A stretch of 15,109 bases of DNA, from NCBI GenBank assembly GCA_027603945.1, contig JADIIU010000205.1, forward strand, positions 1-15,109, read 5' to 3'. Below are positions 3,195 through 13,848 of this stretch, one piece after another. The position numbers and the translations under genes were made by a program. The notes beneath the pieces are model-generated. The model was not told the origin of the DNA and made no database searches. It worked only from the letters and a program-made list of their open reading frames with translations. Each line of letters begins with the position of its first letter. Position 1 is the first letter of the stretch. The stretch is from Terramyces sp. JEL0728 (Eukaryota > Chytridiomycota > Chytridiomycetes > Rhizophydiales > Terramycetaceae).

Positions 3195-5188
3195 TTAACT
3201 TTCATAAGAACTTATATAAGATAAATAATTTTCTAAACTTACACCTTTCTAACCGATTGGCTTACCATAGTGTAAAGCACCACATAATTCAGAACATTGA
3301 CCATAATAAACAGATTCTCTATTAATTACAAAACCCATAGCATTTAATCTACCAGGTAATGCATCACATTTAATACCTAATGAAGGTACAGCAAAAGAGT
3401 GAATAACATCATTACTAGTTAAAATTAAACGAATACTAGTATTAATAGGCTAAACTAAATAATTATCTACTGTTAAAGTACGTAATTCACCTAATTCTAA
3501 ATCATTATCTTGAACCATAAAACTATCAAAAGCAATAGATTCATTATCATTAGTAACATAATCAGATAATTCATAAGACCAATCAAAATATTTAATATAT
3601 ATTTTTTAATAAAAAACAAAAATCTTAAAGATTTTTTTTATTCCTTTCTATTTTCGAAAAAGTTTTTTTAATTAATGATAAATATATATTTTATTTTCGA
3701 CTGTACATTAAATAAGGCTAAAATAAATCCTTACCCACAAATGAACCAGTCTGTAGCAAAGGAGAGATAATCTCTGCAAATTCCCCTGACGGTCTCTTGA
3801 ATCGTAAAAAATTGTTCATATTTGACCGTACTCATTCGTGTTGCCATATTAAAAAGAATAAAATATGACTATAAAAATAGGTTTTAATTCGCTTTACGCT
3901 TATTTTCACGCATATTACGAATAATTAATAATCCTTCATGAGTTAAATGTTCTCTTTTTTCTATCTTATCAACTATTTGACACCATATAAAAAATTCTTT
4001 TTGTTTTCTATTCATAAGAGGATATTTATCAAAATGAGGTATAATAAAATTTTTAATATTAAAAAATTTATTTTCTACAAATCTACTATTAAATTTTTCT
4101 ATATTAACATTACCACATCCAAAAAAATCTTTAATTTTATTTAATAATAAAATATCTTTATTATGTTGACCTATATTAAATCCTAATTTAATTTTATATC
4201 CAGTAAAACAAGTAAGATGTTTTGAAATAATTACCATAAAAGATCCATCACCTGCAACAAATCCACTTAACCAATTAGGATTAATAATATCTGGCTATTT
4301 TATATGTGACCTAGGTTCAGGAATAATATTAGGAAATAAAGTTTTTAATATTTTATTTAATCCTTTATTCAAATTTGTTTTAAAAGAAAGACATTTAATA
4401 AATTCTTCTCTAGTAAGATTTTTTTTATTATTTTGGATAATTATAATATTTTTCCATAAAATGTAATCAGCATATTTTTGTGTAATCTAAGGATATTTAT
4501 CAAAATGAGGTATAATATATTTAATAGCATTTTCATAACCCTTAATTTCCTATCGAGCTTCATTTTTATGTATAGTAATTTGTCCTACATTAAAAAATTT
4601 TTTTAATTGATACTAAATATCTATATCTTTATAATCCTATGCTATTTTAAATGTAGATGAAATAGATCTATTATCTTTTTTAGTAACTATCATATTTATA
4701 GAAAAACAACCTTCTGCATCAGTAAAACCTGTGACCCAGTAAGGATTAAGAATATTAGGAGAATCCCAGTTAAAATTTAAGGATTTATTTTTAAGTATTT
4801 TATTTTTATTTGCAAAAAACCTATTTTTATTTATGGCATTAAAAATCTACCATTGATTAGCAATAGCTTTAACAGTAATTTCAGGAGAAATAATTTCATC
4901 CATCTTATATAATAATTTTAAACTAGGAATACCTATAGCCCATAAAATTAAACTTGGAATAATTGTCCAAATTATTTCAATTAAATTACCATGATGTAAA
5001 TTAGATAAATAATCTACACTTGATAATGCACTATAACCAAACCATAATACTACACTTAAAATAATAATTAAATAAAATATGATACTATCATACTAATCTA
5101 TTATTCCCTTCTTTGATTCAGATCCTGGATCTTGAAAAGTCATAGCATAATTTAAAGGATAATCACCAAAAATTTTAAAATTAAACAT
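3195..5188 (-). CDS. cox2: Cytochrome c oxidase subunit II, two exons
   Basis: Exon 1 is 5188-4849 and exon 2 is 3583-3195; together they encode 242 residues ending in TAA. The junction falls inside a codon: TGG T joined to AT TGG restores NQWYWSYE, the conserved aromatic motif. The N-terminus holds two transmembrane helices (about residues 45-65 and 80-105) and the periplasm-like domain carries the CuA site: H175, C210, E212, C214, H218 and M221, with canonical spacing (CSELC, then H four residues and M seven residues after the last Cys). M221 is encoded by AAG (3261-3263); a lysine there would remove a copper ligand. UAG codons at IID-L-YD and LV-L-PINT (3450-3452) sit at conserved Leu. Cox2 receives electrons from cytochrome c and passes them to Cox1. 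nad5 ends 99 bp upstream and the nad2 C-terminal piece starts 21 bp downstream. Confidence 0.95.
3584..4848 (-). mobile_element. Group I intron in cox2 with LAGLIDADG ORF
   Basis: This 1265-nt insertion interrupts cox2 within the conserved QWYW motif. The upstream exon ends in T and the intron ends in G, as expected for group I introns. The 3' part (3584-3883) is non-coding on the minus strand and contains core-like pieces such as AAGAGACCGTCAGGGGAA and GCTACAGACTGG, consistent with P3-P7 elements. I did not fold the whole core. The ORF occupies the first three quarters and is continuous with exon 1. Together these features indicate a mobile homing intron. Confidence 0.85.
3884..4848 (-). CDS. 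LAGLIDADG homing endonuclease/maturase in the cox2 intron
   Basis: The frame continues directly from cox2 exon 1, so the protein is probably made as a fusion and processed; it ends in TAA at 3884. Two LAGLIDADG helices are visible: [14 protein letters not shown] in the N-terminal half and [14 protein letters not shown] in the C-terminal half, each with the expected acidic residue (D or E/D before G). Each half also has a PHFDKYP motif, at about 4491-4517 and 4020-4046, and these two are identical over 27 nt. Four in-frame UAG codons after the exon border (for example in HFDKYP-L-IT) must be read as Leu; the fourth lies between the halves. Such proteins cut intronless alleles and often help splicing. 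Lysines are almost all AAA; the two AAG codons fall at non-diagnostic places. Confidence 0.85.
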
Positions 5189-5209
5189 TATATATATTTT
5201 TTTTATTTC

Positions 5210-13500: not shown

Positions 13501-13848
13501 ATTAAAAAATTTTCTTAATTTTAAGTCTTTGAAGGGGAAAAAATTTTTTTTACCCTGGCTATTAATTCCCGTATTAAAAGAATTTTTACTAAAATTTATT
13601 AATTTAAAAAAAAATATATAGTTCAAAGAACTTAAATTTTGAGTATCTTTATCCGAATTCAGAATTTCATAGCATCGATTTAAGTTTAATAGACTGTCAT
13701 CCTTTACAGTCCAACCAGTACCAGCACCACCAGTAAACATACCGGTTACTAATAAAATTAAAGAAGGGGGTAATAACCAAAATCCTATATTATTTAAACG
13801 TGGGAAAGCCATATCTGGACAACCTATCTTTACTGGAACTAACCAATT
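10502..13848 (-). CDS. cox1: Cytochrome c oxidase subunit I, five 3' exons
   Basis: Exons at 13848-13706, 12512-12032, 11637-11380, 11093-10923 and 10738-10502 join in frame to 429 residues and a TAA; roughly the first 90 residues lie beyond the window. Sequence runs [55 protein letters not shown] (containing CuB His and the His-Tyr pair), GFIVWS/HHMY (two CuB His), [28 protein letters not shown] (heme ligands), FFPMHF-L-G/LAG-M-PRRIP. UAG codons at 12353-12355, 12206-12208, 12194-12196, 11461-11466 area and 10926-10928 sit at conserved Leu. AAG codons at 13828-13830, 12080-12082, 12068-12070 and 10727-10729 sit at conserved Met, while the Lys of VKIF is AAA. It is the catalytic core of complex IV. 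The C-terminal tail after GWNN is ordinary for length. Confidence 0.95.
10739..10922 (-). mobile_element. Very short cox1 intron (184 nt)
   Basis: Separates HFLG from LAGMPRRIP. The upstream exon ends GGT and the intron ends in G, giving the group I pattern and perfect protein continuity. No ORF. It is far shorter than usual group I introns; only fragments such as TTTAGAGATTT resemble the core. It is probably a strongly reduced group I intron. A different intron type is possible, but a group II 5' GTGYG is absent. Confidence 0.75.
11094..11379 (-). mobile_element. ORF-less cox1 intron (286 nt)
   Basis: Splits TYFVVG from HFHYVLS. Exon ends GGT and intron ends in G. The body contains TTTTAGAGATT and AATAGTCC, which resemble the 3' core strands of group I introns. 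It holds no ORF. Reduced but probably still folding as group I. Confidence 0.8.
11638..12031 (-). mobile_element. ORF-less group I intron in cox1 (394 nt)
   Basis: Splits GFIVWS from HHMYLVG. The minus strand contains CTCCTCAGAGACTACACGC, a typical group I P7/S-type strand, and later AGATATAGTCC, the partner P7 strand. The intron ends in G (TTTTATG). No ORF. In-frame UAG and ATG codons after VWS belong to the intron, not to the protein. Confidence 0.88.
12513..13705 (-). mobile_element. Group I intron in cox1 with LAGLIDADG ORF (1193 nt)
   Basis: Interrupts [13 protein letters not shown]: exon ends ACT GT, the next exon starts C TAT CCA, giving Val at the junction, and the intron ends in G. 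Downstream of the ORF the sequence contains AAGGTATAGTCTGAG, like a P7 strand. The ORF fills most of the intron and is continuous with the upstream exon. These are marks of a mobile group I intron. Confidence 0.88.
12601..13705 (-). CDS. LAGLIDADG homing endonuclease/maturase in a cox1 intron
   Basis: Open in frame with the upstream cox1 exon and ending in TAA at 12601, about 367 codons. After an Asn/Phe/Lys-rich spacer come [14 protein letters not shown] (first LAGLIDADG helix) and [14 protein letters not shown] (second). The motif [16 protein letters not shown] ends the first half; its Leu is UAG (13156-13158). A second UAG lies in FFS-L-DSTGHR. Without Leu decoding the protein would lose its second half, so UAG readthrough is needed. 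The coding DNA shares a 25-bp exact string (13150-13174) with the cox2 intron ORF. One GAG codon is present (in LFELSKP), one of very few NAG codons other than UAG and AAG. Confidence 0.85.

Follow-up and report, generated by a model that had tools for sequence, protein, structure and literature searches.

Evidence for AAG as a methionine codon in the mitochondrion of a chytrid-like fungus

The stretch of DNA analysed here (the window, 15,109 bases) is contig C205 of a 15.0 Mb genome in 231 contigs, and is the mitochondrial contig of a fungus in whose genes the codon AAG very probably stands for methionine. Its guanine-plus-cytosine content is 21%, against 37-42% in 50 other stretches sampled from the same genome, and all genes recognised in it lie on the minus strand. 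Their positions, with the numbers of in-frame AAG and TAG codons, are as follows.

1-1351, minus strand: large-subunit ribosomal RNA (rRNA; RF02541, 277 bits), truncated at the contig end
1530-2795, minus strand: nad2, N-terminal piece (PF00361 positions 1-258 of 294); 14 AAG, 6 TAG
2880-3173, minus strand: nad2, C-terminal piece; 1 AAG, 1 TAG
3195-5188, minus strand: cox2, exons 5188-4850 and 3584-3195 (including the stop); 4 AAG, 3 TAG
5288-7288, minus strand: nad5; 15 AAG and 4 TAG counted
7360-8085, minus strand: atp6; 6 AAG, 4 TAG
8191-8337, minus strand: atp8 of the fungal type (PF05933 Fun_ATP-synt_8, E 6.3e-10); 1 AAG, 1 TAG
8428-9888, minus strand: nad4; 6 AAG, 7 TAG
10502-13851, minus strand: cox1, by PDB alignment, exons 13851-13705, 12511-12032, 11637-11380, 11093-10920 and 10735-10502 (including the stop TAA); 5 AAG, 5 TAG

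The 5' end of cox1 falls outside the contig and its exon borders were set by homology, while a LAGLIDADG intron open reading frame (ORF) sits between the two exons of cox2. The end of nad5 was placed at the TAA at 5288-5290, with TAG read through, and its codon count stops at 5336.

Codon meanings were assessed with a simplified Codetta-like procedure of our own, not with Codetta itself, in which AAG and TAG were masked as X, homologue alignments were row-weighted, and log-odds were summed for each codon over the aligned columns. Six genes were aligned, namely cox1, cox2, nad5, nad4, atp6 and the long nad2 piece, which together hold 50 of the 52 AAG codons; the lone AAG of atp8 and that of the C-terminal nad2 piece were left unscored. 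Homologue rows came from bacterial loci, whose record titles are nearly all alphaproteobacterial, and from PDB, and in the first run they numbered 84, 76, 62, 57, 34 and 31 for the six genes in the order given. Six of the 60 nad5 rows from bacterial loci were closer to another gene and 25 further ones either repeated another row or formed part of one, as did 26 of the 56 such rows of nad4; a cleaned rerun used 84, 76, 31, 31, 34 and 31 rows. A column occupancy cut-off of 70% drops 4 of the 50 AAG codons in the cleaned run and 11 in the first.

This inference, which an earlier note on the same DNA had proposed for the whole mitogenome and which was run here on six genes of the window, assigned AAG to methionine. 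In the cleaned run (46 sites) methionine scored +21.1 nats, followed by leucine (-14.6), glutamine (-20.7) and lysine (-24.9), and in the first run (39 sites) the scores were +18.2 for methionine, -15.7 for glutamine and -20.7 for lysine. Bootstrapping of the first run put methionine first in 1985 of 2000 replicates, and with genes taken singly methionine came top in five of the six in both runs. TAG (27 sites) was assigned to leucine, at +8.6 with isoleucine next at -6.4 (cleaned run) and at +9.0 and -6.3 (first run), and ATA to isoleucine (first run). The other sense codons served as a control: every one of the 37 that had three or more sites gave the residue of translation table 4 in the cleaned run, as did 36 of 36 in the first, these codons being unmasked in the alignment and hence partly self-confirming, whereas AAG and TAG were masked. 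Nine codons had just one site or two in the first run; seven of them gave the table-4 residue, and TCC and TTG failed. In the first-run alignments, methionine is also the commonest residue at the 50 AAG sites, both in bacterial rows (0.40, with lysine at 0.008) and in PDB rows (0.42, with lysine at 0.012). Over the 39 AAG columns of that run the methionine-minus-lysine sum is +39.0, and 5000 random sets of 39 columns have a mean of -16.7, a standard deviation of 8.5 and a maximum of 18.6.

The earlier note had drawn attention to ten AAG codons at positions where homologues carry methionine, and each of them is AAG, in frame, on the minus strand. They are listed here with the methionine value of the aligned column (weighted frequency, cleaned rows unless marked first run), together with two nad2 codons outside that set.

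3261-3263, minus strand: Cox2 HYG-M-PI AAG; 1.00
6218-6220, minus strand: nad5 RK-M-G AAG; 0.62 first run, 0.59 cleaned
6356-6358, minus strand: nad5 QLGY-M AAG; 1.00
6584-6586, minus strand: nad5 A-M-EGPT AAG; 0.92 first run, 0.91 cleaned
8065-8067, minus strand: atp6 SP-M-EQ AAG, a weak site; 0.18, with isoleucine at 0.65 (first run)
8779-8781, minus strand: nad4 I-M-PIF AAG; 0.79 first run, 0.81 cleaned
10727-10729, minus strand: cox1 AG-M-PRRIP AAG; 1.00
12068-12070, minus strand: cox1 YA-M-ISIG AAG; 0.96
12080-12082, minus strand: cox1 G-M-VYA AAG; 1.00
13828-13830, minus strand: cox1 VPV-M-IG AAG; 0.98
1710-1712, minus strand: nad2 AAG in a methionine-rich column; 0.57 (first run)
2439-2441, minus strand: nad2 AAG in a methionine-rich column; 0.60 (first run)

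The claim that these ten positions are conserved methionines thus holds for eight (at least 0.81) and less firmly for nad5 RK-M-G, and the atp6 position is weak. The methionine of Cox2 HYG-M-PI is one that we take to be a ligand of CuA. AAG columns with methionine at 0.9 or more number eight in the cleaned run and seven in the first; in the cleaned rows, the 25 columns that reach this value are occupied by AAG (8), TTA (6), ATG (3) and other codons (8).

Conserved lysines give the opposite picture. Those named in the earlier note (nad5 NDLK, SKD and SKSA, and cox1 VKIF) are all encoded by AAA, and its statement that no AAG stands at a conserved lysine extends to every column with lysine at 0.5 or more, these holding 21 AAA and no scored AAG in the cleaned rows. 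The 18 columns with at least 0.9 lysine contain AAA 17 times, GTT once and AAG never.

Codon usage, counted over 2616 codons in eight gene pieces, agrees. G-ending codons are nearly extinct (CAG, GAG, AGG, GTG, CTG and GCG are each absent and TTG occurs twice), and only four are used more than three times: AAG (52), TGG (39), ATG (34) and TAG (31). Because of this near extinction, an AAG that meant lysine would be expected at the low frequency of CAG and GAG; the G-ending share is instead 52 of 121 for AAR, against 2 of 514 for TTR, CAR, GAR and AGR together (P about 2e-82). In three lysine-rich intron-encoded LAGLIDADG ORFs, AAA is used 98 times and AAG five times, so that AAG follows methionine and not lysine. 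The seven gene starts, as placed, are ATG, and among internal methionine codons AAG is the commoner (52 against 27 ATG). With 31 in-frame TAG codons, the genes do not conform to NCBI code 4, in which TAG is a stop. Neither the eight gene pieces nor the three intron ORFs contain TGA, which suggests an unused codon or a stop, in contrast to fungal code 4; the gene frames end in TAA.

Taken together, the inference with masked codons, the usage of codons and the tests of reading frame (described below) support the earlier note's reading of AAG as methionine and AAA as lysine, and the statistics of the sequence demonstrate the meanings of AAG, AAA and TAG. The code is very probably one in which AAG is methionine on a code-16 background (TAG as leucine), AAA is the sole lysine codon and AUG keeps its meaning, in a chytrid-like fungal mitochondrion. 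Several observations weigh against this assignment. In atp6 alone histidine is ahead of methionine (-0.3 against -0.8), and in the N-terminal nad2 piece alone methionine is best with a negative score. Once the ten hand-picked sites are removed, the methionine score falls below background, to -4.4 in the cleaned run (36 sites left), with leucine at -11.9 and lysine at -19.1 and methionine still 7.5 nats ahead; the corresponding values in the first run (29 sites) are -7.3 for methionine, -11.9 for alanine and -14.8 for lysine, methionine being 4.6 ahead of alanine. One cox2 column occupied by AAG (4904-4906) has lysine at 0.26 and methionine at 0.02 (first run). Neighbourhood hydropathy is 0.52 for AAG, 0.54 for AAA and 0.90 for ATG, with no separation of AAG from AAA (p 0.75). 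Neither ARAGORN nor Rfam found any transfer RNA (tRNA) in the window, so the decoder is unseen, and cob, cox3, nad1 and a bacterial-type small-subunit rRNA had no match in the assembly, in a search that carried no positive control with a window gene.

An ambiguous AAG, translated partly as methionine and partly as lysine while a tRNA-Lys(UUU) competes with a methionine-charged tRNA, is improbable. A U34 tRNA-Lys could in principle wobble to G, and several AAG codons stand at variable positions, where either residue would be acceptable. The columns with at least 0.9 lysine, however, have AAA in 17 of 18 cases and AAG in none, and the preference for AAG over ATG as internal methionine codon argues against so costly an ambiguity.

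Much the same low probability attaches to RNA editing under a normal code, by which a middle A would become U in transcripts and turn AAG and TAG into AUG (methionine) and UUG (leucine). The idea draws on the fact that the pairs AAG/ATG and TAG/TTG differ by the same middle-position A/T change, and an editor specific to these codons would be compatible with the DNA data. It would need to be aware of the reading frame, however. TTG occurs twice as a codon, while the two out-of-frame phases contain it 82 and 38 times. The 22 TAT codons that precede G are intact, and in-frame TAA is absent, against an expectation of about 13 (P 1.4e-9 at the rate required), a test that full-length alignment with intact homologues makes non-circular in practice even though the gene pieces were chosen as TAA-free frames. 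This skew of TTG and the pattern of TAT and TAA exclude any process blind to the frame, and frame-blind RNA editing was accordingly rejected. A dedicated tRNA for TAG as leucine has, moreover, already been described in chytrids (PMC6131824), and a codon-specific editor is less likely than a tRNA.

Less probable still, and rejected on the codon inference together with the absence of AAG from lysine columns, is that AAG remains an ordinary lysine codon and that the methionine positions have changed to lysine. Every known table examined assigns AAG to lysine (27 of the 27 NCBI tables in Biopython), and the cox2 column at 4904-4906 would suit it, but the scores of lysine and methionine over 46 sites, the 21 AAA against no AAG at lysine columns, and 52 uses of AAG beside other G-ending pair codons near zero all oppose it. 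Lysine in place of the methionines of Cox2 HYG-M-PI and Cox1 AGMPRR is also hard to square with function. The least probable explanation is a base-calling artefact by which true ATG and TTG were systematically written as AAG and TAG. It could invoke the shared A/T change, the origin of the data in a single contig and the 3 of 12 rRNA positions with consensus UG (window xG, five blocks) that read AG. Sequencing error blind to the frame is nevertheless ruled out by the TTG phase counts and the TAT/TAA test. At 29 columns with at least 0.7 asparagine, aspartate, histidine or tyrosine whose codon precedes G, the window has NAT 19 times, GAC once, other codons nine times and never the NAA codon that an error of this kind would produce. 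In five alignment blocks of the rRNA, A stands at 2 of 18 positions with conserved U and U at 5 of 68 with conserved A, which gives no one-way bias in a sample too small to decide.

Matches to a chitin synthase family number 24 in the nuclear genome (best E 2e-240), a family also matched in 4 of the 14 controls, which are bacterial and archaeal; matches to a radial-spoke protein are present too, and none of the 14 controls has any. With the fungal Atp8, these two show the host to be a fungus, probably of zoosporic habit; the three, together with TAG as leucine, fit a chytrid. The remainder of the mitogenome, tRNAs included, seems to be absent from the assembly, in which the 20 contigs C212-C231 span 10.1-14.0 kb each and shorter contigs seem to be lacking. 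Viral contigs, searched with nad5 and cox1 and with a DNA pattern of cox1, yielded no mitochondrial relatives.

Some features of the contigs stand apart from the code. The two pieces of nad2 lie in reversed order, the C-terminal piece (3173-2880) being upstream of the N-terminal one (2795-1530). Joined, they cover PF00361 positions 1-293 of 294 with 179 bits, against 160 bits for the N-terminal piece, and in alignment with Chaetomium Nad2 the N-terminal match ends at residue 441 and the C-terminal piece starts at residue 442. The break falls at LAG/IPPLLGF and the C-terminal piece begins with its own ATG; about 21 bases separate it from cox2, which leaves little space for one half of a trans-spliced intron. 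Two near-identical copies of an element some 45 bases long occur at 1385-1433 and 10451-10499, each consisting on the plus strand of a small hairpin (TCTCTTATTAGAGAG) and then a pyrimidine-rich run. One copy lies directly past the cox1 stop and the other about 100 bases past the N-terminal nad2 piece, and the element might act as a signal for 3'-end processing or be a mobile hairpin. Between cox1 and nad4, about 600 bases (9889-10501) hold no recognised gene or recognisable tRNA. On nuclear contig C18, near-identical sets of matches to PF09334 (methionyl-tRNA synthetase family) at 94681-95894 and 156455-157668, on one strand and some 62 kb from each other, may reflect either a true duplication or the way the genome was assembled.

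A tRNA with a CUU anticodon and methionine identity, which the earlier note had suggested looking for, was not found in the window by ARAGORN or Rfam. In its mitochondrial mode ARAGORN returned eight weak matches in the window, versus 2-10 in five shuffles, and the 54 and 28 matches of two relaxed modes, obtained without a shuffled control, were not trusted. The CTT anticodon-loop pattern gave four matches genome-wide against seven in backward controls; three of the four, on contig C179, coincide with tRNA matches, two of which ARAGORN calls Lys(ctt), and Lys(CTT) tRNA genes are present in the nuclear genome (19 loci scanned). The decoder is unseen because no other mitochondrial contig was found in the assembly.

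Most likely, AAG was captured by a mitochondrial tRNA-Met with a CUU anticodon, which is predicted to exist. The tRNAs for A-ending codons would read G poorly, and in an AT-rich genome this could have led to the loss of CAG, GAG, TTG and AAG. A copy of tRNA-Met whose anticodon changed from CAU to CUU, still charged with methionine, may then have captured the emptied AAG, and TAG may have become leucine by an equal middle-base step in tRNA-Leu, from CAA to CUA. Loss first and capture afterwards, with one kind of anticodon change in both tRNAs, makes the simplest account. We infer that the surviving G-ending codons match those that C34 tRNAs (CCA, CAU, CUA and CUU) would read. Mitochondria of Synchytrium endobioticum, for comparison, encode a reduced set of five tRNAs (Met, Trp, Tyr, Pro and Leu), with trnL(CTA) tied to TAG as leucine (PMC6131824). 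The full scenario, namely a complete lysine-to-methionine reassignment of AAG that splits the AAR box in a chytrid mitochondrial lineage, through loss of G wobble by (imported) U34 tRNAs and capture by a C34 tRNA-Met(CUU), in parallel with that of TAG by a tRNA-Leu(CUA), seems to us evenly poised between being right and wrong. If it is true, nature would here offer a clean example of codon capture, in which G-ending codons are almost gone save four and both reassigned codons lie one and the same anticodon base from their source.

With AAG as lysine in every NCBI table checked, standard annotation would mistranslate the mitogenome represented by the window, including core positions of Cox1 and Cox2. 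The change of code is not, as had been supposed, unreported. In the Codetta paper (Shulgina and Eddy, 2022; PMC9825746), AAG was predicted to be methionine, at conserved methionine positions of one chytrid mitogenome, 'pending additional confirmation'. That case shares with the window the codon, its new meaning and the conserved methionine sites, lies likewise in a mitochondrion, of a chytrid there and of a chytrid-like fungus here, and may concern the same lineage or another. It is a short remark in a software paper, scored there as a formal error, and the window adds to it evidence from codon usage, reading frame and intron ORFs. The present analysis is strong further evidence that the change is real: for a published but unconfirmed prediction, it renders an artefact of sequencing or alignment very unlikely and offers a testable mechanism.

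Among described codes, a near one is NCBI code 16, assigned to many Chytridiomycota mitochondria (PMC8672057; PMC6131824) and, like the window, having TAG as leucine and TAA as stop, TGA being unused in the window genes; code 16 keeps AAG as lysine, whereas the 46 scored sites here favour methionine. Codes 1, 3, 4 and 16 are the only ones listed in a survey of 685 fungal mitogenomes that drew its codes from NCBI Taxonomy pages, and many Chytridiomycota have code 16 there (PMC8672057). A parallel in the kind of change is AGG as methionine, described in an uncultivated clade of Bacilli (PMC8629427) and in Chromochloris zofingiensis mitochondria (PMC6821328), where, as in the window, a G-ending codon of a basic residue has turned to methionine. 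In the Bacilli AGG is the dominant methionine codon (PMC8629427), as AAG is here. The codon concerned is there one of arginine, and cognate tRNAs with methionine features were found in both Bacilli and Chromochloris (PMC8629427; PMC6821328). The codes with AUA as methionine (tables 2, 3, 5, 13 and 21) likewise have a second mitochondrial methionine codon, but ATA is isoleucine in the window, and AAG requires a changed anticodon because it differs from AUG at the middle base, AUA differing only at the wobble base.

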